A stretch of 32,886 nucleotides of DNA from a virus. The position numbers and the translations under genes are program-made. The stretch covers positions 1 through 32,886 of the IMG/VR virus record IMGVR_UViG_3300031524_000048. One strand, 5' to 3'. Below the pieces are notes generated by a model. The model had not been told where the DNA came from, ran no database searches, and saw only the letters and a program-made list of their open reading frames with translations. Shown here in pieces: positions 1-13,540 of the stretch. Positions within the stretch are counted from its first letter, which is position 1. Every line of letters starts with the position of its first letter.

Positions 1-1
1 A

Positions 2-391
2 GGGAAGGGCTGCGCCGGCGGACAGGCCGATGGGAAGATGCTGGAGAAGCTCAAGCTGCTGGCCTTTCGCGCGGGGCTGAACTGCGGCCGCTGCGCGACG
101 ACGCATCGCAGGAAGGCAGTGACGTGCGCGACGGCGCCGGTGTGCGGCGAGTTCGGGCTGCACAAATTCAGGCACACGTACGCGACGACATTGCTGCGCG
201 ACGGCGTGGACATCGTGAGCCTGCAAAAGCTGCTGGGCCACGCCGACATTGAGAGCACCATGAAGTATCTGCGCGCGCTCGCGCCCGAGGACCTGCTGAA
301 GAAGATCAATCGGACGTCTCTGGCGAAGAGGTTTGTGGAAGGGGCAAAGCGACATCCTCGCCCTGGAGCAGGCGGTGCGCGGTCACGGTGA
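2..391 (+). CDS. Tyrosine recombinase, C-terminal part (cut by window edge)
   Basis: This is the catalytic end of a phage-integrase-family recombinase, which would cut and rejoin DNA at attachment or resolution sites. The reading frame is open to the window edge; the first ATG is at 38, but the true start lies outside. Visible catalytic elements are HKFRHTYAT (the H-x-x-R box), LLGHADIESTMKYL with the second His, and the Tyr nucleophile in MKYL. Before them is a Cys-rich insertion, CGRC followed by two more Cys (as in TCATAPVC), which looks like a small zinc-binding loop; I associate this style with acidobacterial integrases (recollection, not searched). The end overlaps the convergent gene at 306-1082 by 86 bp. 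Whether it belongs to the phage or to a neighbour cannot be decided here. Confidence 0.85.
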   Translation, partial: GKGCAGGQADGKMLEKLKLLAFRAGLNCGRCATTHRRKAVTCATAPVCGEFGLHKFRHTYATTLLRDGVDIVSLQKLLGHADIESTMKYLRALAPEDLLKKINRTSLAKRFVEGAKRHPRPGAGGARSR

Positions 392-1677: not shown

Positions 1678-1992
1678 CTACTTGGTAGGGCAGACGCTTT
1701 CAGCCCACGCGGCGCCTTCAGCTTTAGTCTTGAAGATGCGGGTGTCGGTGTGTGTCGATACCCTCTCACCGCTGCCGCTGGGATCGGGGCCTGAGCCGGT
1801 TGGATGATCAACCTCCCATTCATTGCCTCCGCCATAAAGATTCGCGCACAAGCCGTGGAACGTAGTGGGGTGGCGTTCGCGCCAATAGGTGTACTCGCCG
1901 CCATCGACCTCAACACGGTAATAGGCCGCTCGCGCGCACCCCATCAGGGACAGAAGCAAAACTCCGAGCATTAATTTACTAATGTGACTCAC
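1678..1992 (-). CDS. Predicted lipoprotein
   Basis: The start GTG at 1992 overlaps the stop of the recombinase gene (GTGA) and is preceded by GGAGGG, so translation is probably coupled. Residues 8-19 form a signal sequence ending in a lipobox-like SLMGC, predicting an acylated Cys19 and attachment to a membrane on the periplasmic side. The mature part, about 85 residues, contains two more Cys and Gly/Ser-rich loops. The family is unknown. Lysogen-expressed lipoproteins next to integrases often act in superinfection exclusion or conversion; an outer-membrane spanin is another option. Both are inference. Confidence 0.65.
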   Translation of the reverse strand: MSHISKLMLGVLLLSLMGCARAAYYRVEVDGGEYTYWRERHPTTFHGLCANLYGGGNEWEVDHPTGSGPDPSGSGERVSTHTDTRIFKTKAEGAAWAESVCPTK

Positions 1993-2954
1993 GCGGCCCT
2001 CCGTGATCTGCCGCGCCTCGGCTTGCCGGCCGGCGATGTCAGGGTCCAGCTCCGCGGGTGAAACTTGCGATGAGTCTCCTGGAGGTGTCTGATCGCGACG
2101 TGGGTGTAGAGCTGCGTCGTCGAGATGTCCGCATGCCCCAGGATGGTCTGCACGCTGCGCAGGTCGGCGCCGCCTTCGACCATATGCGTAGCGCAGCTGT
2201 GGCGGATGCGGTGCGGCCCCTCGCCGGTCTGCGCGCGCACTAGCTGGTAGACCCAGCGGCGCGTCAGTGCCCTGCCCCGCGCGCTGAGGAAGACGGCGCG
2301 CTGGAGATCCCCACGGCCGCCGCGTACGAACTGCGATCGCCCGCGGTCCAGGTATTCGGTGAGCGCGTCGACGGCGCGGCGGCCGAGCGGAACGATGCGC
2401 TCCTTGTCGCCCTTGCCGCGGACCTGGGCGCGGCCCTCGTCGAGCTGGAGATCTTCGACACGCAGGCCACAGAGCTCGGAGACGCGCAGGCCGGCGGCGT
2501 ACAGCAGCTCGAGCATGGCGGCGTCGCGCAGCGCGAACTTCGCCGCGCCGGCGCGGTCATCGCAGGCGACGGCCGAGGCCTGCAGGTTGTCGAGGATTTC
2601 GGAGATCTGCGCGGCGGCAGTGGCGTGCGGCAGCGTGATCGACGACGTCGGCTGCTCGACCAGCAGCGTGGGATCGTGGGCGATGCGCTTGTCTTTCAGC
2701 AGCCAGAGGTAGAAGCCGCGCAGCGCGCTGAGCTTGCGCGAGACCGACCGCGAGACCACGCCGTTGCCGCGCAGCTCGCCCAGGAACGCGGAGACTGCCT
2801 CGCGCGAGGCGTTGGCCAGCACCGCGCCATGCTTCGATGCGAACTCGGAGAACTGTTCCAGGTCGGTGCGATAGGCGGCGACGGAGTTCGGCCGCAGCCC
2901 GCGCTCGATGGTGAGGTGCGCGGAGTACTCGCGGAGGAGATCCATGTCGCTCAC
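1989..2954 (-). CDS. XerC/XerD-like tyrosine recombinase
   Basis: A complete 321-residue site-specific recombinase, close to the usual length of Xer proteins. The N-terminal SAM-like core-binding domain spans about residues 5-95. The catalytic domain shows the full set: Arg157 (AAGLRVSEL), Lys181 (RGKGDKER), His248 and Arg251 (HRIRH), His274 (ILGHADIS) and the nucleophile Tyr283 (TTQLYTHV). A basic tail follows (RRGRSRRAA). The GTG start at 2954 has GGAGGC at a good distance and overlaps the stop of the upstream gene (GTGA). It lies downstream of an excisionase-like gene, so it may integrate and excise the phage; its close likeness to XerC/D also fits dimer resolution of a circular element. 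Confidence 0.92.
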   Translation of the reverse strand: MSDMDLLREYSAHLTIERGLRPNSVAAYRTDLEQFSEFASKHGAVLANASREAVSAFLGELRGNGVVSRSVSRKLSALRGFYLWLLKDKRIAHDPTLLVEQPTSSITLPHATAAAQISEILDNLQASAVACDDRAGAAKFALRDAAMLELLYAAGLRVSELCGLRVEDLQLDEGRAQVRGKGDKERIVPLGRRAVDALTEYLDRGRSQFVRGGRGDLQRAVFLSARGRALTRRWVYQLVRAQTGEGPHRIRHSCATHMVEGGADLRSVQTILGHADISTTQLYTHVAIRHLQETHRKFHPRSWTLTSPAGKPRRGRSRRAA

Positions 2955-3190
2955 GCCAGCGCCTCCGCGATCGCCTCGGTGCTGGACTTGAAGGTCAACG
3001 AGATCGCCGATTCAAACGCCAGGTCGGTGGCCACCTGGAGGCCGCGCTTCATTCGCGCGATCGCATCTTCGCGGCTGTCGCACTTAATAATCTGCCGCTC
3101 GCGTTGCTTCCCCTTCAGGGTCGAGCTCAGGGTGACCACCCAAACGCCGTCCGGCCCTTCTTCCGCCTTTATGTGGATCTTTGCGTCCAT
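2951..3190 (-). CDS. Small unassigned protein of the recombination operon
   Basis: A 79-residue protein. The ATG at 3190 is chosen because AGGAGC lies 7 bases before it; the open frame runs further upstream but the added residues are low-complexity and out of character. The first half looks like a beta-sheet (KIHIKAEEGPDGVWVVTLSS, then RQIIKC) and the second like a helix with Glu, Arg and Lys. Its end overlaps the recombinase start by four bases (GTGA), so it is translated with it. Function is not recognised. Confidence 0.6.
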   Translation of the reverse strand: MDAKIHIKAEEGPDGVWVVTLSSTLKGKQRERQIIKCDSREDAIARMKRGLQVATDLAFESAISLTFKSSTEAIAEALA

Positions 3191-3218
3191 GGTTGAGCTC
3201 CTGTTCGGCGCCCGGCGT

Positions 3219-3545
3219 TCACCTCGCCTTGGCGACCTTTTTGAGAATGGGGTTGTGGTGGCAAAGCCAGTAGTCGATGGTGGCGGGGTCAAAGCAGATC
3301 TTCTCACTGCCCGGGATGATGAGCCGCGGAATCTTCTCCGCATGAACCATGCGGTAGATGACATCATCGGAGTGACCGAGCACGTCGGCCAACTCGGGGA
3401 CAGACATTGGGCGACGGAAGGCGCGCAGCCGGTCGACGATGCTGAGTGGGGCACCACCGCTGGCTTGGCGCATCATCTCCGCTGTGTCGCCCGGCTTCGC
3501 GCGAGGCTCGCGAGGGCGTGGACGCGTCATGGAAGCGGCGGCCAT
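3219..3545 (-). CDS. Excisionase-like helix-turn-helix protein
   Basis: A 108-residue protein whose C-terminal 60 residues match the MerR/excisionase type of DNA-binding fold: MSVPELADVLGHSDDVIYRM, then a charged turn (IPRLIIPGSEKICFDPATIDYWL). In this family the fold bends DNA at attachment sites and steers the recombinase toward excision. AGGGAG lies 8 bases before the ATG at 3545, and this start overlaps the upstream stop as TGATG, so the two are coupled. The first 40 residues are Arg/Pro-rich and probably disordered. Position just upstream of the recombinase supports a recombination-directionality role; a plain transcription factor is the alternative. Confidence 0.7.
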   Translation of the reverse strand: MAAASMTRPRPREPRAKPGDTAEMMRQASGGAPLSIVDRLRAFRRPMSVPELADVLGHSDDVIYRMVHAEKIPRLIIPGSEKICFDPATIDYWLCHHNPILKKVAKAR

Positions 3546-3787
3546 CAGTTGGGGCTCCCTGTGGCGTGGCGCCAGTCATCGACGCCGGCGCGGCCGTTCG
3601 GCTTCTTGTAGGGCAGCTCGCCGCGCGCGATACGCTGCTCGATCAGGTGCTGGATCTCGCGCATGTAGATGGTGACCTCATCCTCGGGCGCCACGATCTT
3701 GGCGATGACGGCAGTGCGCGCCACGCTCAACGCCTTGTGGTGGTCGTACATCCCGGCGAGGTAGAGATCGATTTCATCGAGCGGCAT
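3545..3787 (-). CDS. Small unassigned protein, first gene of the minus-strand recombination operon
   Basis: An 80-residue mostly helical, acidic-then-basic protein. The ATG at 3787 is preceded by AGGAGGT at 7 bases, the best ribosome site nearby, so the longer upstream frame is rejected. Its stop overlaps the start of the excisionase-like gene. It diverges from the toxin gene at 3862, and the 74-bp gap must hold promoters for both. No family is recognised. Confidence 0.6.
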   Translation of the reverse strand: MPLDEIDLYLAGMYDHHKALSVARTAVIAKIVAPEDEVTIYMREIQHLIEQRIARGELPYKKPNGRAGVDDWRHATGSPN

Positions 3788-3813
3788 CAGCGGACCTCCT
3801 GCGCGAAAATAAA

Positions 3814-3861
3814 GTGTCCAGAATAGTTGACAGCTACACAGGTGTCCCGTATAGTGGACAC
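3814..3861 (+). promoter_or_regulatory. Promoter and operator of the HigB/HigA-type module
   Basis: A near-ideal promoter, TTGACA (3827-3832), 17 bases, TATAGT (3850-3855), points at the toxin gene. The predicted transcript start falls on the A of the toxin ATG at 3862, with no ribosome site, so the mRNA is probably leaderless. Operator half-sites: GTGTCCA at 3814-3820, GTGTCC at 3842-3847, and the inverted TGGACAC at 3855-3861. The last two form GTGTCC-N8-GGACAC centred on the -10 box, as expected for autoregulation by an HTH antitoxin. Confidence 0.8.
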
Positions 3862-4158
3862 ATGGTTGAGTTGGTCGCAAGCGCCGAGTTTACGAAGTGG
3901 ACCGGCAAGTTGCGTGACCTGGAAGCGAAGAAGCGGATAGCCGCCCGTCTTGGTCGGGTTGCGGCGGGAAACTTCGGCGATGTGAAGCCGGTCGGTTCCG
4001 GCATCTCTGAGCTGCGCATCCCCTACGGCCCCGGCTATCGCGTGTACCTGATGCAGCGCGGAGCGGAGATTGTGATTCTGCTGTGCGGCGGCGATAAATC
4101 GACCCAACAGAAAGACATCGAACGGGCGAAGGAAATCGCCCTCGATTTCAAGGAGTGA
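3862..4158 (+). CDS. higB: RelE/ParE-superfamily toxin of a HigB/HigA-type pair
   Basis: A 98-residue protein matching the addiction-module killer family (HI1419-like). Typical features are EFTKWTGKLRDLEAKKRIAA near the start, GNFGDVKPVGSGISELRIPY in the middle, then GPGYRVYL and ILLCGGDKSTQQKDIERA. Family members are RNA-cleaving toxins acting on translated mRNA. The ATG at 3862 is chosen over the longer frame because homologous proteins start there and the promoter predicts transcription from that base. The antitoxin follows after 3 bases. The toxin-first order is the usual one for this subfamily. In a phage it would stabilise the element or guard against other phages. Confidence 0.88.
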   Translation: MVELVASAEFTKWTGKLRDLEAKKRIAARLGRVAAGNFGDVKPVGSGISELRIPYGPGYRVYLMQRGAEIVILLCGGDKSTQQKDIERAKEIALDFKE

Positions 4159-4161
4159 CCT

Positions 4162-4512
4162 ATGCCAACCAAAAAGAAGAAGATGACCTTTCGCCGCTTC
4201 GATGTGGCTGAGATGCTCGACAGCCCGGAGATGATCGCTGGTTTTCTCAGCGTCTCCATTGAAGAGGCACAGGGCGACCAGGCCCTGATCCTGAACGTGC
4301 TGAACACCGCGGCGCGAGCCCAGAACAGAAACATGACGCAGCTCGCCAAAGATAGCGGGATGACGCGGAGCGGACTTTATGCGGCGCTCGCCGGCGAACG
4401 GAACCCGAGCTTTGGAACGGTGCTTCGATTGCTCGGAGCGATGGACATGACTGTGACCGTGACGCCGGCAAAACGAGGCAACGTTCGCAAGCGCGTCGCC
4501 GTCGCGGCCTGA
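4162..4512 (+). CDS. higA: HTH antitoxin of the HigB/HigA-type pair
   Basis: A 116-residue antidote protein of the HI1420-like family. The N-terminal half (FDVAEMLDSPEMIAGFLSVS) is the conserved family lead-in. The C-terminal half is an XRE-type helix-turn-helix, MTQLAKDSGMTRSGLYAALA followed by NPSFGTVLRLLGAM. AAGGAG overlaps the end of the toxin gene, and the ATG is 3 bases after its stop. It should neutralise the toxin and, with it, repress the promoter at 3827-3855 through the GTGTCC half-sites. The stop codon TGA is the first three bases of a palindromic octamer array. Confidence 0.88.
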   Translation: MPTKKKKMTFRRFDVAEMLDSPEMIAGFLSVSIEEAQGDQALILNVLNTAARAQNRNMTQLAKDSGMTRSGLYAALAGERNPSFGTVLRLLGAMDMTVTVTPAKRGNVRKRVAVAA

Positions 4513-4545
4513 GCGCCTGGGTGCCTGGGTGCCCAGGCACCCGGC
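4510..4545. repeat. Octamer palindromic array, copy 1
   Basis: The array begins with the TGA stop of the antitoxin gene and runs in 8-bp units: GAGCGCCT, GGGTGCCT, GGGTGCCC, then the reverse complement AGGCACCC. Arms of 11 bp (4519-4529 and 4532-4542) flank a 2-base centre. It could fold in RNA and protect or end the upstream transcript. Confidence 0.85.
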
Positions 4546-4590
4546 CGCGTGAATCCCACCGGACATGACGAAGGCGCCGCAACGTGTACG

Positions 4591-5331
4591 ATGGCGCGCA
4601 TGAGAAATATCTGGGCCCTGGTCGTCATCCTTGCGGCTACGTCCGCGTCTGCTCAAACTGCGACCGTACCCGACGAAGCCGCGCGCACCATCACTGAGTG
4701 CGGCGCTCCCGTCAGCGACCAGCTCGTGCCCGATGTCGGCATGATTGGCCATCGCAACCGGACCCTGACCTACAGGAACTTCACCGCCGTCTATGAGCAG
4801 CGTTCCGGGCCGTGGTTTCTGGTGCGGGGAAGTTATAAGGGACGGCCAAAGGCCACGCGCGAGGACTTCATCATCGAAGTGCCGTGCATCGGCAACGCGA
4901 TGACGACCGCGCCGGCTGCTGGTACCGGGCTGACATCCACGCCTGCGCCGACACCCAGCAGTGGCGACGGGAGCGGCGCCGCGCTTTTGCTGGCAGTCAT
5001 CCTGGGCTTCTACTTCCTGCCGTGCATCGTGGCTGCCTACCGTAAGGTCCACTCCTCTGCCGGCATCGGCTTGGTCAACCTGCTGCTGGGCTGGACGCTG
5101 ATCGGCTGGGTCGTTGCCCTCGTCTGGGCATGCAGCGCCGAGACCGAGGCGCAGGTCAAAGCCCACGTCGTGGATTACGACCAGATGGCGGCCGCGATGC
5201 TTCGCGCACAGCAGCATGCCGCAACCGTGGTCGCTGCCCCGCTGCCCACACAAAGTCGGGTGATCTCCGGACCTGGACCGATGCTTGATGCTGGGCGCGC
5301 TGTGGGCAGCCTGTTCCACCGCAAGAGCTGA
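4591..5331 (+). CDS. Superinfection immunity protein (T4 Imm-like membrane domain)
   Basis: A 246-residue exported membrane protein. A signal peptide (MRNIWALVVILAATSASAQ) is followed by a soluble domain with two Cys pairs, a Pro/Thr-rich linker near residue 130, then a two-helix membrane domain: LLLAVILGFYFLPCIVAAYR and NLLLGWTLIGWVVALVWAC. The motifs LP-x-I and N-LLGWTLIGW-ALVWA are the hallmark of the Imm superinfection-immunity family (T4 Imm), which blocks DNA injection by related phages. T4 Imm is only this small domain; the periplasmic extension is unusual. The start could also be the ATG at 4600. The gene follows the toxin-antitoxin pair and ends in an octamer array, typical of an independently expressed lysogenic-conversion gene. 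Confidence 0.8.
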   Translation: MARMRNIWALVVILAATSASAQTATVPDEAARTITECGAPVSDQLVPDVGMIGHRNRTLTYRNFTAVYEQRSGPWFLVRGSYKGRPKATREDFIIEVPCIGNAMTTAPAAGTGLTSTPAPTPSSGDGSGAALLLAVILGFYFLPCIVAAYRKVHSSAGIGLVNLLLGWTLIGWVVALVWACSAETEAQVKAHVVDYDQMAAAMLRAQQHAATVVAAPLPTQSRVISGPGPMLDAGRAVGSLFHRKS

Positions 5332-5390
5332 ACGCCTGAGCGCCTGAGCGCCCGGGTGCCTGGGTGCCTGGGTGCCCAGGCACCCAGACG
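5329..5390. repeat. Octamer palindromic array, copy 2 (longest perfect arms)
   Basis: It starts with the TGA of the immunity gene. Units GAACGCCT, GAGCGCCT, GAGCGCCC, GGGTGCCT, GGGTGCCT and GGGTGCCC then flip to AGGCACCC. Perfect arms of 13 bp at 5360-5372 and 5375-5387. It fills the gap between two convergent genes, so it is well placed as a bidirectional terminator-like structure. Confidence 0.88.
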
Positions 5391-5405
5391 CGCTGTGATT
5401 CGCCC

Positions 5406-5666
5406 TCACGCTGCGAGCTCTTCCTGCCGGCGCACCCTCCCCACCGGCTTTATGAGTGCGACGTGATAGTCCTCAGGAAATAGAATCTGGTCGCGCGTGA
5501 CGGCATTGCCGAAGTACTTGGCAATTTTGTTTGCGACGGCCGGACTAGCCTTGGTCTCCCGGATCTCAATGCGGCGATAGTGACTCGGCGTTATGTCGAG
5601 CGCTATGGCCACTTGCCGCGAGGTCAGTTTCAAACTCTCGCGATGAGCTCTCAGTGGCGTAATCAT
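5406..5666 (-). CDS. XRE-family regulator, likely switch repressor
   Basis: An 86-residue helix-turn-helix protein: LRAHRESLKLTSRQVAIAL followed by DITPSHYRRIEIRETKASPA, then a short tail. The start is the ATG at 5666 because AAGGAGG lies 8 bases before it; the upstream ATG at 5684 is part of that ribosome-site region. It is transcribed leftward from a strong promoter with a palindromic operator in the spacer, and a near-identical promoter-operator is found in front of the replication operon. That makes this protein the best candidate for a CI-like repressor acting on both; the divergent neighbour at 5765 could play the Cro-like part, or the roles could be swapped. Confidence 0.82.
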   Translation of the reverse strand: MITPLRAHRESLKLTSRQVAIALDITPSHYRRIEIRETKASPAVANKIAKYFGNAVTRDQILFPEDYHVALIKPVGRVRRQEELAA

Positions 5667-5686
5667 ATGAACATCCTCCTTCATGG

Positions 5687-5715
5687 TTTATCGCACCATC
5701 ATAATGGTGTGTCAA
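5687..5715 (-). promoter_or_regulatory. Repressor promoter with operator in the spacer
   Basis: On the minus strand TTGACA (5715-5710), 17 bases, GATAAA (5692-5687). The spacer holds the inverted repeat CACCAT-N4-ATGGTG (5694-5709), so a bound dimer would sit exactly between -35 and -10. The same layout recurs at 6652-6680. Confidence 0.75.
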
Positions 5716-5764
5716 GCCCTAAAACTCCGTGGCTTATTAGACCATTTATGCGTCAAAATTGAGC

Positions 5765-6100
5765 ATGGATATCGTTGGAGCCAACATTCGCAGCCTAAGA
5801 CGTGCGAGGGGCTATCTACAAAAAGAGCTGGCCGACCTTGCCAAAATGGACCCCAGCAACCTCTCCAAATTGGAGCGCGGCGATTACACATGGACGAGAG
5901 ACAACCTGGAGCGCATCGCGAAAGCGCTCGGCGTTCCGGTGGCCTCCTTTTTCGAGGTCCAACCGAAGACGCCAGCCTCCGGCGCCTTGTCGCCGGGCTC
6001 GCCCCCCTCGTCGAAGCGTGATCCATTGCCCCTGCTGATCAATATGGACTCCAAGCTGGATCTCATTCTCAACAGCATTAAATGCGGGGCGGCGCAGTGA
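5765..6100 (+). CDS. XRE-family regulator divergent from the switch repressor
   Basis: A 111-residue protein with a classic HTH-XRE domain at about residues 5-65: VGANIRSLRRARGYLQKELA, DLAKMDPSNLSKLERGDYTW, ERIAKALGVPVASFF. A Pro/Ser linker leads to a short helix (MDSKLDLILNSI) that could mediate oligomerisation. The ATG at 5765 has no clear ribosome site; a TTG six bases earlier is possible. The 98-bp divergent region between the two regulators is the presumed lysis-lysogeny switch. The gene ends in a GTGA overlap with the next gene, so the two are co-expressed. Confidence 0.85.
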   Translation: MDIVGANIRSLRRARGYLQKELADLAKMDPSNLSKLERGDYTWTRDNLERIAKALGVPVASFFEVQPKTPASGALSPGSPPSSKRDPLPLLINMDSKLDLILNSIKCGAAQ

Positions 6101-6603
6101 GCGACCCACGGATGAGTGTCGCGATCACGGGCTTGACCCAGGCAGACCGTGGGCTGCTCGGCGAAATGATCAACGGCGTGAGCAACGCGAAGTATGTAGC
6201 CAATCCTCGCGTGCCGTCCCATTACATCGTCGCGAACGATCCGCTCTCATCGAAGGTGCTTCGATTTGAGGGGGGAGGCTCTCTCGTCATCACCGAAGAC
6301 GAACTGCTCGAATACATCCACGCAGGCACGTTCCCGGCTCACGATCTGGCGCGCCCGCTTTCCCCGAACCGGCTCAAAGTGACCTGGGCGGAGTTCTACC
6401 GGCCGCCGAGGGCGTGCCAACTCGAATATCACAACGTCGATGGGGATCTATACACTGGCCTCGTGCATGTCGTGCGGCGCGGCACCGGCAACAATGGCCA
6501 CGAATATATCGGGGCTTATGAGGGTGCGACCTTCAAAACCTACCGTACAGACCGCATCCTAACTGCTAGCTACCTGAGCGACGCAGTTCCAGAAAAACCG
6601 TAG
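6097..6603 (+). CDS. Unassigned protein with WYL-like C-terminal domain
   Basis: A 168-residue protein. The GTG at 6097 overlaps the previous stop (GTGA), a coupling style seen repeatedly here; ATG at 6112 is the alternative. Residues about 100-155 (CQLEYHNVDGDLYTGLVHVV, then HEYIGAYEGATFKTYRTDRI) have the pattern of a WYL domain: a beta-rich core ending in F-x-x-x-R-x-D-R-I. The same ending, FKTLRSDRI, is present in the SWIM protein at 12626-13243. WYL domains bind nucleic acid or ligands and often control defence and stress genes. Its place beside the switch suggests an accessory regulator. The assignment rests on pattern reading only. Confidence 0.6.
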   Translation: MSDPRMSVAITGLTQADRGLLGEMINGVSNAKYVANPRVPSHYIVANDPLSSKVLRFEGGGSLVITEDELLEYIHAGTFPAHDLARPLSPNRLKVTWAEFYRPPRACQLEYHNVDGDLYTGLVHVVRRGTGNNGHEYIGAYEGATFKTYRTDRILTASYLSDAVPEKP

Positions 6604-6651
6604 AAACCCGATGAAAGGCCCACCCTTGACTACCCCACCCTAGGGAATGGC

Positions 6652-6680
6652 TTGACACACCACGCTGAAGGTGTAATAAA
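6652..6680 (+). promoter_or_regulatory. Early promoter with repressor-type operator
   Basis: TTGACA (6652-6657), 17 bases, AATAAA (6675-6680). The spacer reads CACC-N8-GGTG (6658-6673 region), matching the operator of the repressor promoter. With flanks, 28 of 34 bases agree with the minus-strand copy, including CTTGACACACCA and ATAAACCAT. It drives the replication genes from 6707 on. Confidence 0.78.
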
Positions 6681-6706
6681 CCATCTAGCTCATCAGTGGG
6701 CAGCCT

Positions 6707-7048
6707 GTGAACCCCATGCCCGACGCCGCTCCCCAACTCGCGCTGCTCCGTGACCGCCTCACGTGGCTCCGGCTTTGCCACGCTGAGCCGGCTGCGTGTA
6801 TGAACTGCCTGCACACCATTGCGGAGTTCCTGGCCGGAGAGATGGACCATGACCTGCAAACCGCGCTCAACAAGTCCACCGAGAGCTACCAGGCAGAGCT
6901 GGGAGCCAACCGCTGCACGCTGGAGCAGGCGCGCGTTCTGCGCTTCCTGACCTGCTCGGCGTGCATCGCGCCTACGGCAGAAAATTATTTCGTCGCCGAC
7001 GACGACCCAATGAACATAGCAAAGCACGTAGACCGGAGTAGAGCTTGA
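6707..7048 (+). CDS. Small Cys-rich protein, first gene of the early operon
   Basis: A 113-residue protein with CHAEPAACMNC near residue 25-35 and CSAC near residue 87, which may form a zinc site. The rest is helical. The start is GTG at 6707, or ATG at 6716; neither has a strong ribosome site. It lies 26 bases beyond the -10 of the early promoter and overlaps the replication gene (TTGA). No family is recognised; first-gene position in the early operon suggests a replication accessory or regulator. Confidence 0.65.
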   Translation: MNPMPDAAPQLALLRDRLTWLRLCHAEPAACMNCLHTIAEFLAGEMDHDLQTALNKSTESYQAELGANRCTLEQARVLRFLTCSACIAPTAENYFVADDDPMNIAKHVDRSRA

Positions 7049-8586
7049 GTGTATCGATCATGGGCGCGGTGATGGACCGTGGGCCGGCTAAAGGTTCAAT
7101 GAGATCTCTTCTGCTGGCGATCGCCAACAGCGCCGACGACTTCGGGTTCGCCTGCCCCGGCATCGAGCTGCTGGCCAAGTCCTGCTGCTGGGACGAGCGC
7201 ACCGTCATCCGCAACAGCGGACGCCTGGAGGCCGAGGGCTGGATGCGCGTGGAGCGTAAGGTCCTGGGCGGCCGCGGGAATGTGTACTTCATCGACATTC
7301 AGAAGCTCGGGGTCATCCCGACCTCAACGGCGCGGCACAGCCCCATGTGGGCGGACATGCAGCGGCTGATGCGCGCGCTGAACACAGGTGACAAACTGTA
7401 CCAAAGAGGCGGCCGCCTGAAGTTCGAAAAACCCGCCGATGGTGCGGGTGAAGTGGTCACCGGCGACCTCTTCGGCGACGAAAACACAGGTGACATTTTG
7501 TCACCTGAGTTTGGGCGCGCTGAGCCCCAAAATGGGGGCACAATCGACCGGATTGCCGCCATTGCCTCAGTTACGGGCGATTTAGGGGCTGAAACCGCCT
7601 CAGAAGATGGAAACTCAGGTGACAAAATGTCACCTGACAACCCACACCAGTGTCACCTGACAGGTGACATTTTAAGCTCGCCCTTTAAGTACTTAACCGT
7701 TACTGAACCGTTACACAACCGTAAGACCCCCCAACCCCCCGCAAGCGGGGGGAGCGGGTTGGAACTTTCCGACCAGGTCTCGGCTCAAGGCGTCGAGCTG
7801 GTGCTGCCCCACCCCGACGCTCAACCCGGCGACGCCGACTTCGCGCTGAACGTGGGGCTGGCGTCGCGCTGGGTGCTGCGGCGGTGCGGGATCTCGAACT
7901 CGCGGATGGAAAAGCACGTCACCGCGGCGCTGACCCTGCGCATGAAGTCCACCGGCGAGGACCTGCCGGCCGTCGCCCAACTCGCCGCCGCGAACAACGC
8001 GGCCTACACCGCTGCCTTCGCTGCCGGCGATATGCGCTTTGGGCCGTGGAGCGTCCCTGCGTTCTTCGGCCAGGGGCACTGGACCAGCAGCGCGACGTGG
8101 CCGTGGGTCGACGCAGCGCGGCGATCGCCTTCCGTTGCGCGATACGATGACAGCCCCGAAGCCGAGGCGTTCCGCGCCGCGGCTGAAGCCGCCGCGAATG
8201 AACGGCGTGCCGCGTGGACCGAGAGCAACGCCGACCAGATCGCTGCGCTCGACGTGCCGGAGGAGGCGAAGGCCGCACTCTCCACCGTGGTCACATCGCT
8301 GCGCGCCGTTGCCGGCAGCCTGCGCGATGGCGAGGCGCTCGACGTCGCAGATCAGCGGCTGTGTGAGCTCGAGGCCGCGATGCTCGATGCGCTGGTGGCG
8401 CATGTGCCGGCAGCGAAGGCCGCGAACGATGAGATCGACGCCAGGGCGTCGCAGCTCCCGCTGAACCTCACCCGCGCGCAGTTCGCCGCGCAACTCGTCC
8501 CGATGCGGCGCAAGAAGATCTGCGACGCCGTCGACGCGCCCTACCTGTCGCTGTTCCACATGCCGGACTTTTCTTCGACCGCCTGA
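7045..8586 (+). CDS. Replication initiation protein with internal origin
   Basis: A 513-residue protein. The N-terminal 100 residues form a winged helix-turn-helix of the phage replisome-organiser kind: MRSLLLAIANSADDFGFACP, GIELLAKSCCWDERTVIRNS, LEAEGWMRVERK. A low-complexity centre (residues about 110-250) coincides with a cluster of iterons and AT-rich repeats in the DNA. The C-terminal part is helical and Ala-rich. As with lambda O, the protein probably binds sites inside its own gene and recruits the helicase. The start is TTG at 7045, coupled to the previous stop and preceded by GGAG, or ATG at 7060. It is followed by an octamer array and the HerA-like gene. Confidence 0.75.
   Translation: MSVSIMGAVMDRGPAKGSMRSLLLAIANSADDFGFACPGIELLAKSCCWDERTVIRNSGRLEAEGWMRVERKVLGGRGNVYFIDIQKLGVIPTSTARHSPMWADMQRLMRALNTGDKLYQRGGRLKFEKPADGAGEVVTGDLFGDENTGDILSPEFGRAEPQNGGTIDRIAAIASVTGDLGAETASEDGNSGDKMSPDNPHQCHLTGDILSSPFKYLTVTEPLHNRKTPQPPASGGSGLELSDQVSAQGVELVLPHPDAQPGDADFALNVGLASRWVLRRCGISNSRMEKHVTAALTLRMKSTGEDLPAVAQLAAANNAAYTAAFAAGDMRFGPWSVPAFFGQGHWTSSATWPWVDAARRSPSVARYDDSPEAEAFRAAAEAAANERRAAWTESNADQIAALDVPEEAKAALSTVVTSLRAVAGSLRDGEALDVADQRLCELEAAMLDALVAHVPAAKAANDEIDARASQLPLNLTRAQFAAQLVPMRRKKICDAVDAPYLSLFHMPDFSSTA
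7385..7669. other. Candidate replication origin: seven 9-bp iterons
   Basis: The 9-mer CAGGTGACA or its complement occurs seven times in 285 bp: forward at 7385, 7487, 7616 and 7661, reverse at 7499, 7628 and 7651. They pair into CAGGTGACA-N3-TGTCACCTG palindromes at 7487-7507 and 7616-7636, and a head-to-head pair at 7651-7669. They lie inside the initiator gene, next to AT-rich repeats, as in lambda. Confidence 0.85.
7670..7752. other. Candidate origin unwinding region and hairpin
   Basis: Directly after the iterons come TTTTAAG, the perfect palindrome TTAAGTACTTAA (7685-7696), and three 11-bp spaced repeats, AACCGTTAC at 7695 and 7706 and AACCGTAAG at 7717. Then follows a perfect hairpin, CCCCCCGC (7735-7742) and GCGGGGGG (7745-7752). 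AT-rich repeats fit an unwinding element; the hairpin could load a primase or helicase. Confidence 0.6.
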
Positions 8587-8625
8587 GCGCCTGAGCGCCT
8601 GGGCACCCAGGCACCCAGGCACCCA
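8584..8625. repeat. Octamer palindromic array, copy 3
   Basis: It starts with the TGA of the replication gene: GAGCGCCT, GAGCGCCT, GGGCACCC, AGGCACCC, AGGCACCC. The inverted core GCCTGGG-CA-CCCAGGC spans 8597-8612. It separates the initiator from the ATPase gene. Confidence 0.85.
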
Positions 8626-8654
8626 TTCCCTGTATCGATCGCTGGAGGCAAGAC

Positions 8655-10439
8655 GTGGAAAAACTGACCATCGGCACCACCGGAAGTCATCGCAAGCCGT
8701 TCACTCTGCCTCTGAGTCTCGTGACGTACACGCAGGCCATCCTCGCGCGCAAGCGTTCCGGCAAGAGCTACACCGGTTCCGTAGAGGCCGAGGAGATGCT
8801 CAAGGCCAAGCAGCAGATCGCGGTGATCGATCCGACCTCGGCGTGGTGGGGACTGCGCTCCAGCGCCGACGGCAGGTCGGCCGGCTTCGACATCATCGTC
8901 TTCGGCGGGGACCACGCCGACGCGCCGCTGGACTACCGCGCGGGCAAGGCGATGGCTACCGCGCTAGTCGAGCATGGCTTCTCCGCCATCTTCGACATCG
9001 GCAACTTCCACACCGAGGAGCAGGTGCAGTTCGTCATGGACCTGTGCAGCGAGCTGCTCCGCATCAACCGCAACGCCATGCACCTGTTCATGGACGAGGC
9101 CGACACCTTCGCTCCCCAGCGCGGCAGCAAGCTCCAGATCAAATGCCTGGGTGCCGTCAGTCGTCTGGTGAAGCAGGGCGGCATCAAGGGCGTGGGCTTC
9201 ACGATGATAAGCCAGCGTTCCGCATCGCTCAGTTGGGACGTGCTGAGCCAGGTGGACATCCTCACCGTGCTGCGCATGAGCGCGCCCCACGATCTCCGGC
9301 CGGTGCAGAACTGGCTCCAGAGCGAGACGACGAAAGAGTTCGCCGCCCAGGTCTACGCCGAGCAGCCATCGCTGCCGGTGGGCGTGGCGTTCGTTGCCTC
9401 AGCGCCGCTCGGCATCGCGCAGCGCGTGGAGATACGCAAGCGCGAGACGTTCAACTCCGGAGCTACTCCGAAGCCGGGAGAGCGGGCCATCGTCCCGAAG
9501 ATCCTCGCGCAGATCGACATTGCGAAGCTGGGCCAGAAGATCGCAGACAGCGTGAAGCGCGCGCGCGAAGAGTCGCCGGAGTTCCTCAAGCAGCGCATCG
9601 CAGCACTCGAAAAAGAAGTCGCCAAAGGAGGCAAGCCCAGCATGGAGCTCCAAAAGCACATCAAGGACCTGGAGGAGAAGGCCGCGCTCTACGACCAGGC
9701 GAAGGTTGATCTAGAAGCCGCGCAGCAGCAGGCCGAGAGCGTGAAAGCTAAACTGACCTCGGTCGGCAACATTCTAGGTTCGATGAAGGAGCTGTGCGAT
9801 CGCGGCCTCGCTGCGCTCGCGACCGAGGGTGTGGTCAAGCCGGTCCCGTCAAAGCAGCCACCGACCAGGTATCTCGCTACGCCCATTGCCCCGATCGTCC
9901 AGCCCGTCCATGCGGCACCTGTCCCGCGCCGCGCGCCATCCGCGCCACCGCCCGTCGACGGCGAGCTAAAGCTCCGCGGCAAGAGCATGGCGATGCTTGC
10001 GGCCTGCGTCGGCATGTATCCGGCTGGGCTGACCCCAGCACAGGTCGCCATGCAGGCCGGCATGAAGCGCAGCAGTGGGACGTTTGACGACTACAAATCT
10101 CTCCTCAAGAGATCTGGCTGCGTCCAGTTCGTCGACGGGCTCTGGTATGCGACCGAGGAAGGTCTGCGTCGCCTCGACACTACGGCGCCCTCTCCCCCCA
10201 CTACCACAGAGGAGGCTCTCGCGCTCTGGATGCCGAAGCTGCGCGGCAAGTCAAAGGTGCTGCTAGAGGTTTTGGTCGCCCAGCGTGGACAACCTCTCGT
10301 CTACGAGAAACTCGCCGAACTGGCGGGCATGCAACGCAGCGGAACCTTTGACGACTACCTCAGCCTCCTGCGCTCCGCTGGCCTCATCACTACCGGCGCC
10401 GGCACGGCGCGCGCCAACGCGGAGGTTTTGTTTCTATGA
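8655..10439 (+). CDS. HerA/FtsK-type P-loop ATPase with two C-terminal winged-helix repeats
   Basis: A 594-residue ATPase. Walker A is ARKRSGKS (residues 31-38), Walker B is HLFMDEAD (143-150), followed by a sensor-like ISQR (185-188) and a VDILTVLRMSAPHDL stretch, all typical of HerA hexameric DNA translocases. A coiled coil lies at about 315-385 and a Pro-rich linker at 395-435. Two homologous winged-helix-like units follow, about 436-506 and 526-594, sharing LRGKS and RSxGTFDDYxSLL. The GTG start at 8655 has GGAGG 8 bases upstream. Located between initiator and ParA, it may act as replicative helicase, as a pump in segregation, or in DNA processing. Confidence 0.82.
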   Translation: MEKLTIGTTGSHRKPFTLPLSLVTYTQAILARKRSGKSYTGSVEAEEMLKAKQQIAVIDPTSAWWGLRSSADGRSAGFDIIVFGGDHADAPLDYRAGKAMATALVEHGFSAIFDIGNFHTEEQVQFVMDLCSELLRINRNAMHLFMDEADTFAPQRGSKLQIKCLGAVSRLVKQGGIKGVGFTMISQRSASLSWDVLSQVDILTVLRMSAPHDLRPVQNWLQSETTKEFAAQVYAEQPSLPVGVAFVASAPLGIAQRVEIRKRETFNSGATPKPGERAIVPKILAQIDIAKLGQKIADSVKRAREESPEFLKQRIAALEKEVAKGGKPSMELQKHIKDLEEKAALYDQAKVDLEAAQQQAESVKAKLTSVGNILGSMKELCDRGLAALATEGVVKPVPSKQPPTRYLATPIAPIVQPVHAAPVPRRAPSAPPPVDGELKLRGKSMAMLAACVGMYPAGLTPAQVAMQAGMKRSSGTFDDYKSLLKRSGCVQFVDGLWYATEEGLRRLDTTAPSPPTTTEEALALWMPKLRGKSKVLLEVLVAQRGQPLVYEKLAELAGMQRSGTFDDYLSLLRSAGLITTGAGTARANAEVLFL

Positions 10440-10469
10440 GCGTGGGTGCCTGGGCACCCAGGCACCCGC
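10437..10469. repeat. Octamer palindromic array, copy 4
   Basis: It begins with the TGA of the HerA-like gene. GGGTGCCTGGG (10444-10454) and CCCAGGCACCC (10457-10467) form 11-bp arms around CA. It lies in the 75-bp gap before ParA, whose own ribosome site is downstream of it. Confidence 0.85.
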
Positions 10470-10514
10470 AGTTCCTTTTTCCCGAGCATCAACCCCGAGC
10501 ACTTAGGAGCCAAC

Positions 10515-11135
10515 ATGATCCTGACCGTAGCGAGTTACAAAGGCGGCGTGGGCAAGACCACCACCGCGGTCCACGCGGCCGCCTTCCTCAATCAACTCTC
10601 GAAAAACAAGCCGGCGTTGCTGCTGGATGGCGACTCCACGCGCAACGCCACGGCCTGGGCGCAGCGCGCGAAAGCCGGCGCGTTCCCTCTGCGCGTCGAG
10701 CCGATCGATATGGCTGCGAAGCTGGCGCGCGAGTATCCGCACATCGTGATCGACACCGGGCAGCGGCCGAGCGCCGCCGATCTCGAAGCCGCGGCCGAGG
10801 GTTGCGACCTGCTGGTGATTCCCGCCGTGCCATCCGCTCTCGACACTGACGGGCTGGGGCAGACGGTGCGTGCGTTGCAGCAGCTCAAGATCGACAACTA
10901 CAAAGTGCTGCTTACGCGCGTGGCTCCGGACGCAGCGCGCCAGGCAGCGGACCTCCGCGAGCTGCTGCGCTCGATCGGCGCACCGGTATTCAAAGCAGAG
11001 ATCCCACGGCTCAAGGCCTTCGAGAAGGCCGCGGGCGAAGGGCTGATCGTGGACGCCGTCGACGACCGCCAGGCTGAGCGCGCGTGGGCTGCCTACGAAG
11101 CCGCCGGGCACGAACTCAAGGCAGGTGCGCGATGA
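10515..11135 (+). CDS. parA: ParA-type partition ATPase
   Basis: A 206-residue protein of the small ParA class. The deviant Walker A is KGGVGKTT (residues 9-16) with the signature Lys9. LLLDGDSTRNATAW (35-48) is the switch region and HIVID (76-80) the second Walker motif. There is no N-terminal HTH domain, so transcription control is left to a partner. AGGAG lies 7 bases before the ATG at 10515. Such ATPases coat the nucleoid and move plasmid DNA bound by a centromere protein; the ribbon-helix-helix protein two genes on is the natural partner. The stop overlaps the next start (ATGA). Confidence 0.9.
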   Translation: MILTVASYKGGVGKTTTAVHAAAFLNQLSKNKPALLLDGDSTRNATAWAQRAKAGAFPLRVEPIDMAAKLAREYPHIVIDTGQRPSAADLEAAAEGCDLLVIPAVPSALDTDGLGQTVRALQQLKIDNYKVLLTRVAPDAARQAADLRELLRSIGAPVFKAEIPRLKAFEKAAGEGLIVDAVDDRQAERAWAAYEAAGHELKAGAR

Positions 11136-11353
11136 GGAGACTCTTCGTGGTCGAGTATCGCGACTCAAAGCTCCTGACCTGGAGTGCAGTGAAGGGCTTC
11201 CTGACTTCAGAGGCGGCCGACGCTTATCAGCGCACGGTCGCCGCTGGTCTGCCGGCGCGCGTGGTGCCCTATGCGCCCGAGGAGATGCTCAAGGTCGCGA
11301 CGAAGAACGATGTGATGAAGCTATCGGCAGCGAAGGCGGGGGTGCGTCCATGA
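11132..11353 (+). CDS. Small unassigned protein between ParA and its presumed partner
   Basis: A 73-residue protein that overlaps the genes on both sides by ATGA, so the three are translated together. It looks like an alpha/beta fold: RRLFVVEYRDSKLLTWSAVK, then a helix (TSEAADAYQRTVAAG), then a strand and a second helix. No family is recognised. Its location inside a partition operon suggests an accessory role. Confidence 0.65.
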   Translation: MRRLFVVEYRDSKLLTWSAVKGFLTSEAADAYQRTVAAGLPARVVPYAPEEMLKVATKNDVMKLSAAKAGVRP

Positions 11354-11637
11354 ATCTGGCAAAAGCGTTCGAAGGAATGAAGGCGGTGAAGACTGTGGGT
11401 ACTCAGGCGTCGGGCACCCGGGCACCTGGGCGCTCAGGCACCCAGGCGCTCAAGCGCCCAGCCGCTGGTCTTCCCTTGCAGGGGACGGCGAAGCGATCGC
11501 ACCCGGACTTCGCGCCGGTGAAGGTCTACCTGCGCAAGGAGACGCGCCGCGCGGCCGAGCGTAAGTGGGTGGACGCCAACGGCGGCGACTTCTCCGACCT
11601 GGTCGAGATGTTGTTGCAGAAGTATGTGGGTGCCTGA
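11350..11637 (+). CDS. Ribbon-helix-helix protein, likely centromere-binding partner of ParA
   Basis: A 95-residue protein. Residues 56-93 (PVKVYLRKETRRAAERKWVD, then GDFSDLVEMLLQKYV) follow the ribbon-helix-helix pattern: one beta-strand, a helix, a turn and a second helix. Such proteins bind direct repeats as dimers of dimers and serve as ParB in type Ib partition. The N-terminal part would contact ParA; residues about 16-38 are encoded by an in-frame octamer array (GTQASGTRAPGRSGTQALKR), giving an Arg/Gly/Ala linker. The ATG at 11350 overlaps the previous stop. A second array carries its stop codon. The centromere site is not identified. Confidence 0.7.
   Translation: MNLAKAFEGMKAVKTVGTQASGTRAPGRSGTQALKRPAAGLPLQGTAKRSHPDFAPVKVYLRKETRRAAERKWVDANGGDFSDLVEMLLQKYVGA
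11398..11463 (+). repeat. Octamer array translated in frame, copy 5
   Basis: About eight units of the AGGCACCC, AGGCGCTC and GGGCACCC type lie in one orientation inside the ribbon-helix-helix gene. Since 8 bp times 3 is 24 bp, the frame cycles every 8 residues and stays free of stops, giving G-T-Q-A-L/S type repeats. It is the only copy fully inside a gene. Confidence 0.85.
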
Positions 11638-11661
11638 GCGCCCGGGAGCCTGGGCACCCAG
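11627..11661. repeat. Octamer palindromic array, copy 6
   Basis: It contains the last codons and TGA stop of the ribbon-helix-helix gene. From that TGA (11635) 27 bases are identical to copy 7, including GAGCGCCCGGGAGCC. GGGTGCC (11628-11634) can pair with GGCACCC (11653-11659). Confidence 0.8.
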
Positions 11662-11681
11662 AGGTTAGGAATGGAGGATCC

Positions 11682-11990
11682 ATGAGCGAAGAAAGCAGAA
11701 CGAGGTATCACGCCGCGGGCCACGCGATTCAATCGGGTGTGGCTTATGAGATGACCCAGGGCGACGCTGCCGCTGGGACCAGCCCAAAGAGTCTCCGCAC
11801 CGGCGTCAATCTGTCGAAGTGTGACCAAGCCGCGCTGGTGAGGCTGCTGATGGCGAAGGGCGTGTTCACTCTGGACGAGTATGAGCAGGAGCTCGCGGAC
11901 GAGGCCGAGCGTGAAGTGCAGCGTTATGAGGACCGCGCGAACGCCCGTATGGAAGCGACGGGCAGTCCGTCCAAGATCACTTTTGGCTGA
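11682..11990 (+). CDS. Small unassigned early protein
   Basis: A 102-residue protein, start ATG at 11682 with GGAGG five bases before. The second half is helical and acidic: LSKCDQAALVRLLMAKGVFT, then LDEYEQELADEAEREVQRYE. The LMAKGVFT-DEYEQEL pattern resembles a short winged-helix or helical hairpin found in small phage proteins of unknown role. Arrays of octamer repeats stand on both sides, so it may be an independently acquired cassette. Confidence 0.65.
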   Translation: MSEESRTRYHAAGHAIQSGVAYEMTQGDAAAGTSPKSLRTGVNLSKCDQAALVRLLMAKGVFTLDEYEQELADEAEREVQRYEDRANARMEATGSPSKITFG

Positions 11991-12020
11991 GCGCCCGGGA
12001 GCCTGGGCACCCAGGCACCC
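11988..12020. repeat. Octamer palindromic array, copy 7
   Basis: It starts with the TGA of the preceding gene and shares 27 identical bases with copy 6, then adds AGGCACCC. The next gene's ribosome site, AAAGGAG, follows at once. Confidence 0.85.
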
Positions 12021-12033
12021 AAAGGAGAGAGCG

Positions 12034-12210
12034 ATGGCCGAGCGCTTCACGAAGGGGACGGTCGAGGCGAGTGTGTGGTGTGCCAAGTGCGGGAAGGCCA
12101 CGCTGCACCGCATCGATAACGGACTCCGCGGGGCATGCCTGGTCTGCCTGAAGAAGCTGGAAGATCTGCCGGCGGTGCCCCCGGCCGCGGTGCAGGAGAA
12201 TCTGTTTTGA
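12034..12210 (+). CDS. Zinc-ribbon protein of 58 residues
   Basis: Two CxxC knuckles are visible, CAKC (16-19) and CLVC (35-38), with 15 residues between, as in a treble-clef or ribbon zinc site. AAAGGAG precedes the ATG at 12034. The remainder is a short acidic-Pro tail. It is likely a small nucleic-acid or protein adaptor; the exact target is unknown. The KH-protein gene follows after 14 bases. Confidence 0.7.
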   Translation: MAERFTKGTVEASVWCAKCGKATLHRIDNGLRGACLVCLKKLEDLPAVPPAAVQENLF

Positions 12211-12224
12211 AAAGGAGCCACACG

Positions 12225-12515
12225 ATGACCGATGAAGAGAAGTGCAGGAGCATGGAGATGTTAGCGAGGACGATGGTGACAGCCGTGGTGAATACGCCGG
12301 ACGCGGTGAATGTCGCGGGATCGATGTGTGGGGACCAGGGGATCTTGCTGACCATCGTCACGGCGCCGGGCGATGTGGGCCAGATGATCGGTAAACAGGG
12401 CAGAATGGCTCGGTCCATCCGCACGGTGCTCGGCGCGGCCTGCGGCCGGGAAGGCCTTCACCTCGAGCTGAACCTCGTCGAGTCGGATCGTGACAGGGAA
12501 GGGCTCCGGCGATGA
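12225..12515 (+). CDS. KH-domain RNA-binding protein, KhpA-like
   Basis: A 96-residue single-KH protein. The RNA-binding loop is GKQG (56-59) in the context GQMIGKQGRMARSIRTVLGA, nearly the consensus of bacterial KhpA. It is preceded by ILLTIVTAPGD and followed by LHLELNLVE, the beta strands of the fold. Known KhpA proteins bind many RNAs and act in cell-length control and small-RNA traffic. AAAAGGAG lies well before the ATG at 12225. Carriage by a phage is uncommon; it could bind phage or host mRNAs, for example to steer translation of leaderless transcripts, which is speculation. The stop overlaps the next start (ATGA). Confidence 0.82.
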   Translation: MTDEEKCRSMEMLARTMVTAVVNTPDAVNVAGSMCGDQGILLTIVTAPGDVGQMIGKQGRMARSIRTVLGAACGREGLHLELNLVESDRDREGLRR

Positions 12516-12679
12516 GCGACGTCGGTGATGCCGAGTTGGACAAACTAGCCTTCCTGCGCGCGCGGGCCTGGGCGGCACAGAGGCCGTTCGTGCCCTACGA
12601 CTCGATGTTCCCGCCGGTGATGCCTCTAAGTGAGATTGTCGATGTGGATGCGCGTGGTGTCGCGGAGGAAGATCAGTAG
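12512..12679 (+). CDS. Very small protein coupled to the KH gene
   Basis: A 55-residue frame starting at the ATG that overlaps the KH stop (ATGA) and ending with TAG at 12677-12679. Its sequence begins MSDVGDAELDKLAFLRARAW and contains a Pro-rich middle (PFVPYDSMFPPVMPL). The overlap style matches other genes of the operon. The last 54 bases overlap the minus-strand gene, so the two transcripts converge. No function is known. Confidence 0.5.
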   Translation: MSDVGDAELDKLAFLRARAWAAQRPFVPYDSMFPPVMPLSEIVDVDARGVAEEDQ

Positions 12680-13243
12680 CTCCTGCGACCAGCCTTCAGC
12701 GCTTTTAGGCAGGTAGGTGAGGATGGCCTTCGCCATGTGAGGGCACACGAAACCCAGCTGCCCACTCTCATAGCCAAAGCCGCTGCGGATGCGCTTCTCA
12801 GGACAGGTGCAGGTGTATTTGTTCAGATCGACCGTCCACGTCTTGTTACTCACCGCTGTCGTCGGCATCTTGAAAACCGCGTTGGGCAGCGGGAATCCTG
12901 GTAGTTGCGTCGAGTAAGTCGGCTGCGGCCGGATGCTGGGTTCGTGGCCCTGGGTGAGCTGCTCGACGACACTGACGATGCGGTCCGATCGCAGCGTCTT
13001 GAAGATGCCGGCGTGCATCACGCCGAAGTAAATCTTGTGACTGAACTCGCCGATCTTTAGTAGCTCGACCGTGCGGTCACTCATCACGTTGTCGCCATCA
13101 CGATAGACGATCCGATACCGCTCGCGTGGCTCGACGATGCGCTTCCAGACGATGTTCTCGCTGAGCGAAAGTGGAGCACCTGCAGCTTTGCGCGGCGCCG
13201 GCCGCTTGCGACGCCAGTCGGGACGGGAAGGGAAGTTCGCCAT
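12626..13243 (-). CDS. SWIM zinc-finger protein with a WYL-like domain
   Basis: A 205-residue protein. Residues about 40-92 (RERYRIVYRDGDNVMSDRTV, then IYFGVMHAGIFKTLRSDRI) have the WYL-like pattern also seen at 6097-6603. Residues 138-175 form a SWIM finger, C145-x-C147 and C167-x-H169, in YTCTCPEKR and GFVCPHMAKAIL. SWIM fingers bind DNA or proteins and occur in recombination and transposition factors. The combination with a WYL-like domain is one I do not know. The ATG at 13243 is chosen from a weak GAGGC upstream; ATGs at 13273 and 13306 extend the frame. It lies antisense between early and late genes. Confidence 0.65.
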   Translation of the reverse strand: MANFPSRPDWRRKRPAPRKAAGAPLSLSENIVWKRIVEPRERYRIVYRDGDNVMSDRTVELLKIGEFSHKIYFGVMHAGIFKTLRSDRIVSVVEQLTQGHEPSIRPQPTYSTQLPGFPLPNAVFKMPTTAVSNKTWTVDLNKYTCTCPEKRIRSGFGYESGQLGFVCPHMAKAILTYLPKSAEGWSQELLIFLRDTTRIHIDNLT

Positions 13244-13324
13244 CGATGTCTGCCTCGGCGGGAATCGTGGCATCGGAGCGTCGATTTGAGCAAAAACCGC
13301 GCACATAAGGACTAGAGTCGAGAT

Positions 13325-13540
13325 ATGAGCGCCCCCCTCAGATCGACAGGGGTTGCGCCAGCGCAACGAACAGGTTTGCCGCGACGCCGAGTCCTGATGA
13401 ACTTCCGGTTACGCCCAGAACAGAAGCAGCAACTGATTGAGCAGGCGCGTTTGCGCAACGACGGACGCCCTGAATCGATGACGCAGGTGGTCGAGCGGCT
13501 CATCATCGCCGGAAGTGGCCAGCCGAAACTCTTCACGTAA
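13325..13540 (+). CDS. Small ribbon-helix-helix-like protein
   Basis: A 71-residue basic protein. Residues 23-65 (VLMNFRLRPEQKQQLIEQAR, then SMTQVVERLIIAG) resemble a ribbon-helix-helix: strand with alternating hydrophobics, helix, turn, helix. The N-terminus is Arg/Pro-rich. The ATG at 13325 has no close ribosome site. It diverges from the SWIM gene. A DNA-binding regulator at the early-late border is plausible, but not shown. Confidence 0.55.
   Translation: MSAPLRSTGVAPAQRTGLPRRRVLMNFRLRPEQKQQLIEQARLRNDGRPESMTQVVERLIIAGSGQPKLFT

Follow-up and report, generated by a model that had tools for sequence, protein, structure and literature searches.

In lambda, operators lie over the early promoters, and the cI gene stands between them. 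Lambda has six operators in all, and the immB region of N15 and phiKO2 has five, three between the repressor gene and cro and two between the repressor gene and the replication gene (PMC4997575). The N15/phiKO2 repressor lacks the Ser/Lys residues for self-cleavage and regulates its own gene as well as cro and replication, and phiKO2 Cro binds only the operator adjoining the repressor gene (PMC4997575). FsoR, the 231-aa CI protein of Fels-1, has been investigated in tagged form as the repressor of that prophage and was reported to be cleaved on induction (PMC3121763).

The DNA analysed here, all 32,886 nt of the virus record IMGVR_UViG_3300031524_000048 (hereafter the window), carries two similar promoter modules and a divergent pair of short XRE genes. 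We consider it probable that these modules serve as the early promoter pair of a lysis-lysogeny switch of the lambda/N15 type, in which a CI-like repressor acts on five 17-bp operators. As a design, this switch is a further case of the known CI-Cro plan of lambda and N15, and the closest known plan is best read as immB of N15/phiKO2. The 3 + 2 arrangement of operators described for immB is also found in the window, with an O-like gene downstream of the replication promoter. However, the operators in N15/phiKO2 are 16 bp long, with T-A-N10-T-A, and those of the window 17 bp, with ATGG...CCAT; immB also has a putative antiterminator gene, q (PMC4997575), whereas in the window the cro-like gene is followed by the xis/int side. 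No N15/phiKO2 record was among the three and nine phage records matched by the 86-aa and 111-aa XRE proteins, respectively (E 1e-5). The five-site plan with other operators, in phages not matched to N15/phiKO2, suggests a recurring solution.

Lambda is resembled in the 17-bp operators over the early promoters and in the cI-like gene between them. However, the second early promoter has three operators in lambda and two here, and the lambda repressor has a C-terminal self-cleavage domain, which the 111-aa CI-like protein of the window is without. Relative to lambda, the immunity block is inverted with respect to the int and replication arms. The nearest annotated relatives of both XRE proteins are those of Fels-1, which are likewise adjacent and divergent, but the gene facing the replication genes is cro in Fels-1 and cI-like here; the Fels-1 intergenic region was inspected by eye. 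The repressors also differ in size, with 231 aa for FsoR, cleaved on induction (PMC3121763), and 111 aa for the CI-like protein. By description, a further likeness is to Gifsy GfoR/GtgR, small repressors that are not expected to self-cleave and have homologues of about 150 aa.

Promoter modules and the divergent XRE genes

The modules and the two XRE genes are placed as follows.

5406..5666 (-), cro-like XRE gene, 86 aa, Pfam HTH_3 2.8e-08
5681-5675, ribosome site of the cro-like gene, AAGGAGG, 8 nt ahead of the ATG
5687..5715 (-), promoter of the cro-like gene: TTGACA (5715-5710), 17 nt, TGn, GATAAA (5692-5687)
5754..5759 (+), possible -10 of the cI-like gene, CAAAAT, 5 nt ahead of the ATG, predicted from the sequence
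5765..6100 (+), cI-like XRE gene, 111 aa, Pfam HTH_3 3.7e-12
6652..6680 (+), early replication promoter: TTGACA, 17 nt, TGn, AATAAA

The first-pass annotation had reported that the two promoters agree in 28 of 34 bases, and this number was reproduced for the 34-mers running from CTTGACA to ACCAT (5716-5683 on the minus strand, 6651-6684 on the plus strand). When the 34-mers are begun at TTGACA itself, which starts at 5715 in the minus-strand module and at 6652 in the plus-strand module, 27/34 bases are identical, and for the 29-mers from -35 through -10 the count is 23/29. Against the minus-strand 34-mer, the top match reached by 300 dinucleotide-shuffled copies of the window was 23/34 (mean 19.5), and thus the module pair exceeds chance. 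The inverted repeat CACC-N8-GGTG, which had been placed between -35 and -10, indeed heads the 17-nt spacer in both modules, and both have an extended -10 (TG one base ahead of the -10). This repeat alone occurs six times in the window and is not special, so that it is the whole module that matters. A simple promoter scan of 3000-12600 listed neither module because it demands T at position 6 of the -10. As for the cI-like gene, its transcript is perhaps leaderless, since CAAAAT stands 5 nt before the ATG at 5765 and no clear ribosome site is present. An Rfam search gave 0 matches, and blastn of 5000-12000 against the phage collection gave no match.

Both XRE proteins are rare. When IMG/VR was searched with the two proteins singly and with alignments, the hits were one near-identical phage (IMGVR_UViG_3300031788_000051, 99.96% over 12,592 bases) and two independent ones, IMGVR_UViG_3300044515_000031 (G002) and IMGVR_UViG_3300037231_000294 (G003). 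Identity to the counterparts in G002 and G003 is 63 and 64% for the 86-aa protein and 59 and 54% for the 111-aa protein. In both phages the modules are found at equivalent places, on the cro-like gene and past the cI-like gene, facing outward, and they agree within each phage at 26/34 and 31/34 bases. A scan with the degenerate pattern (up to three mismatches) gave exactly two matches in each of the four records searched (G000-G003) and none for the reversed control. An exact pattern built from the six promoters of the three phages was found in only three of 2.9 million IMG/VR contigs, in two copies each, in a scan that may omit the window's own record, and these contigs are the same three that encode both XRE proteins. 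A looser pattern gave seven contigs, the three known ones and four with one match each. The latter were taken as chance matches because, in the stretches examined, they have no five-site cluster and neither XRE protein. Against plasmids the 86-aa protein had no match, and a search of genome contigs returned one relative, a weak one (40% over 53 residues) from a Bacillota MAG. The group is small and known here from metagenome contigs only, with three types in IMG/VR; neither it nor its operator was found in literature searches, which dealt with phage switches in general and not with these contigs.

The roles of the two proteins were judged by similarity. In the phage collection (E 1e-5), the 86-aa protein matched three records, Fels-1, Flotzy and Eeyore. 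The Fels-1 match is the annotated cro analog, and that in Flotzy and Eeyore is a frame, itself unannotated, divergent from the annotated CI-like repressor. The 111-aa protein matched nine phage records at the same threshold, the matched place being annotated as regulator, repressor or HTH protein in eight and unannotated in one; the named matches are Fels-1 (repressor), ENT47670 (two, regulator and CI-like repressor), ST64B (two), 118970_sal3 (two) and As1, and one match is annotated 'Sb38', with regulatory protein in its record note. In an all-against-all comparison, three Cro-position proteins gave 43-48 bits with the 86-aa protein, whose two CI matches reached 17.7 bits; for the 111-aa protein, the scores were 47-56 bits with four CI proteins and 28-40 bits with three Cro-position proteins. 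For Fels-1 the 86-aa protein gave 47.8 bits with the 'cro analog' and 17.7 bits with CI, the likeness of both window proteins to Fels-1 proteins lying mainly in the HTH domain.

The 111-aa XRE protein therefore groups, by sequence similarity, with CI-type repressors, and the lysogenic repressor is probably not the 86-residue protein. The cI-like and cro-like HTH genes are divergent in all three phages; this pair is kept, and the repressor of the first-pass annotation is most likely the Cro-like member. Of the regulon proposed there, the two early promoters are supported, which point outward and serve an XRE gene and the replication genes, respectively, but not the role of the 86-residue protein, Cro-like by similarity, as the repressor. 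Control of its own gene together with the replication promoter could be exerted by a Cro or by a CI protein alike. No peptidase or C-terminal self-cleavage domain was found in the 111-aa protein, its domain matches being confined to the HTH part. Among solved structures it is nearest to the restriction-modification controller C.BclI (4.7e-08), which indicates an HTH only. An AlphaFold model of the CI-like protein from three sequences was poor (mean pLDDT 46.2) and was left out of the conclusions.

Five predicted 17-bp operator sites

To profile the symmetry of the modules, all six promoters from the three phages were aligned at TTGACA, and complementary pairs were counted around every centre. 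Two dyad peaks, at +3.0 and +24.0, have 35/48 pairs each, a number reached by 0/500 joint column shuffles. The third, at +13.5, has 31/48 pairs (reached by 7/500) and corresponds to CACC-N8-GGTG. It is the weakest of the three, whose centres are 10.5 bp apart, and as the operator unit CACC-N8-GGTG is thus out-scored by two tandem 17-bp operators per promoter. The outer dyads are 17-bp palindromes, ATGG-N9-CCAT (about ATGGYKTRNYAMRCCAT), one over the -35 and one over the -10, and the centres of the paired 17-mers are 21 bp apart in 6/6 promoters. Because these operators overlap the promoter hexamers, some of the symmetry at +3 and +24 belongs to the promoter consensus, and the -35 hexamer itself is partly symmetric. 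A fifth 17-mer, overlooked in the first-pass annotation, precedes the cI-like gene (5729-5745 in the window) and occupies the equivalent place in all three phages. Three like sites thus lie between the cro-like and cI-like genes in the window, G002 and G003, and at the second early promoter only two operators were found in each phage.

Each phage was scanned with a symmetric 17-bp model built on the ten sites in the remaining two, and the predicted operators in the window are listed below with their leave-one-phage-out scores.

5683..5699, predicted operator over the -10 of the cro-like promoter, 22.7
5704..5720, predicted operator over the -35 of the cro-like promoter, 21.1
5729..5745, predicted operator before the cI-like gene, at its -35 place, 17.9
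6647..6663, predicted operator over the -35 of the replication promoter, 20.7
6668..6684, predicted operator over the -10 of the replication promoter, 25.4

The next site in the window scores 8.1, and on 100 shuffles the best score averaged 11.6 with a maximum of 17.1. In G002 the five sites score 20.7-25.5, followed by one stray site at 14.8, and in G003 16.6-23.3, followed by 10.4. The operator over the cro-like -35 has a poor left half in all three phages (AGGG, AGGG, AACG). The fifth site overlaps no good promoter, but it is the weakest in the window (17.9 against the shuffle maximum of 17.1). It was compared with the promoter operators in both directions, over the whole window (32,870 positions) and over one piece each of G002 and G003 holding the fifth operator. 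With a model from the promoter operators of the other phages only, the fifth operator ranks 5th in the window and 4th in both G002 and G003. Conversely, a model from the fifth operators of the other phages only ranks the four promoter operators of the window 1-4 of 32,870; in the G002 piece all four are within the top five, and in the G003 piece three are the top three and one -35 operator is 8th. The modules, the five sites and their conservation are shown, together with the similarity-based assignment of the two proteins. The three phages are related, and their sites are not fully independent.

The proposed switch and other readings

From this layout we infer binding, dimers, cooperativity and the direction of the switch. 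The CI-like XRE protein (5765-6100) would be the lysogenic repressor, a dimer of which would bind the 17-bp palindrome (about ATGGYKTRNYAMRCCAT) at its five copies, two on the cro-like promoter, one before the cI-like gene and two on the replication promoter. With the tandem pairs filled, perhaps cooperatively, at centres 21 bp or two helical turns apart, RNA polymerase would be blocked at both promoters. This blockade would silence the Cro-like protein and the operon of the O-like, HerA and ParA proteins, and probably the xis/int side too. The Cro-like protein (86 aa), expressed from the leftward promoter, would read some or all of the five operators, and on the single site 5729-5745 it would turn off the cI-like gene and lead to lytic commitment. 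The fifth operator would let the CI-like protein, the Cro-like protein or both turn down the cI-like gene. Induction would probably go through an antirepressor or another signal, since no self-cleavage domain is recognisable in the CI-like protein. The Cro-like part of this model may be wrong because phiKO2 Cro binds only one operator (PMC4997575), and the 86-aa protein may bind only 5729-5745 and neither module. Taken as a whole, the model describes a compact, fully predicted switch of two short HTH proteins, five operators and three promoters.

In the first-pass annotation, the 86-aa XRE protein was the main repressor and acted through CACC-N8-GGTG on its own gene and on replication. Phage repressors can be autorepressed, the gene of this protein is driven by one of the modules, and the central dyad is conserved, with CC and GG in 6/6 promoters. 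However, the protein groups with Cro-position proteins and not with CI, the central dyad scores under both flanking dyads, and the fifth site has the flanking geometry. Moreover, a repressor made solely from a promoter designed like that of the replication genes would be expected to give no clear bistability, and we regard this reading as quite unlikely. The central dyad may instead serve the second protein, the CI-like one reading the flanking 17-mers at five sites and the Cro-like one CACCAT-N4-ATGGTG at the two promoters only. That the three dyads are exactly 10.5 bp apart and all composed of CCAT/ATGG half-sites, and that the fifth operator is without a central-type partner, would agree with such a division, but two such 17-mers at 21 bp spacing produce the central dyad automatically, and the division is unlikely. 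If it were true, the repressors would compete for shared half-sites (four per promoter) in registers one helical turn apart, and they would not extend equally to the promoter of the repressor gene. The interleaved dyads provide a clear test of whether CI and Cro use one operator or two registers.

It is very improbable that the modules are merely similar strong promoters without operator function, or copies made by gene conversion. A near-consensus -35 and an extended -10 do explain a large part of the common bases, but the spacer and the flanking half-sites are kept in three phages where, by eye, most of the downstream flank is not. In addition, the same motif is present at the fifth operator, a site without promoter hexamers, and in the stretches examined the four unrelated single-match contigs have neither the proteins nor the cluster of five sites. 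The CI-like repressor on five 17-bp operators remains the preferred reading.

Genes around the switch

The genes on both sides of the immunity block are as follows.

1989..2954 (-), tyrosine recombinase (integrase), on the same strand as the cro-like gene, PHROG integrase 7.7e-46
3219..3545 (-), excisionase-like HTH_17 protein, TIGR01764 1.2e-05 and HTH_17 2.2e-05, both below cut-off
6082..6603 (+), ORF of 173 aa, function not assigned, between the cI-like gene and the replication promoter
6707..7048 (+), first gene of the early operon, 113 aa, no assigned function
7045..8586 (+), replication initiation protein, O-like, phrog_391 6.5e-10
8655..10439 (+), HerA-like ATPase, 36% to the annotated 'hera helicase' of MW202482
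10446..11135 (+), ParA-like protein, phrog_164 1.1e-30

In G002 the cro strand likewise has a recombinase downstream (52% identity), and in G003 a weak match (28%, 2.6e-5) points to one. Neither relative has space for the 173-aa ORF, which weakly matches a 246-aa protein of the window (12626-13366; 25% over 64 aa, 4e-05 in a single comparison), itself with a weak SWIM zinc-finger match. The early operon holds the HerA-like ATPase and the ParA-like protein (8655-11135), and the latter raises the question of an N15-style plasmid-like prophage state.

The phage that is 99.95-99.96% identical over the shared stretch departs from the window at 3492, within the excisionase-like ORF. Judged by eye, the replacing sequence (L002 6175-6342) apparently encodes a different HTH_17-type protein, and an exchange of the xis/int cassette is suggested. 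The region separating the cro-like gene from the xis/int genes carries, on the opposite strand (3814-5331, +), a RelE/ParE-type toxin with its antidote (HI1419/HI1420 type) as well as a protein of 260 aa that has a superinfection-immunity domain, and a promoter-like TTGACA-17-TATAGT stands ahead of these genes at 3827. The left 12 kb also contains a GC-rich repeat family of 8-bp units (about CTGAGCGC / CTGGGTGC), mostly intergenic and partly inverted, at 4493-4558, 5328-5401, 8567-8640, 11402-11467, 11979-12036 and other places; the copy at 10442-10469 resembles a terminator.
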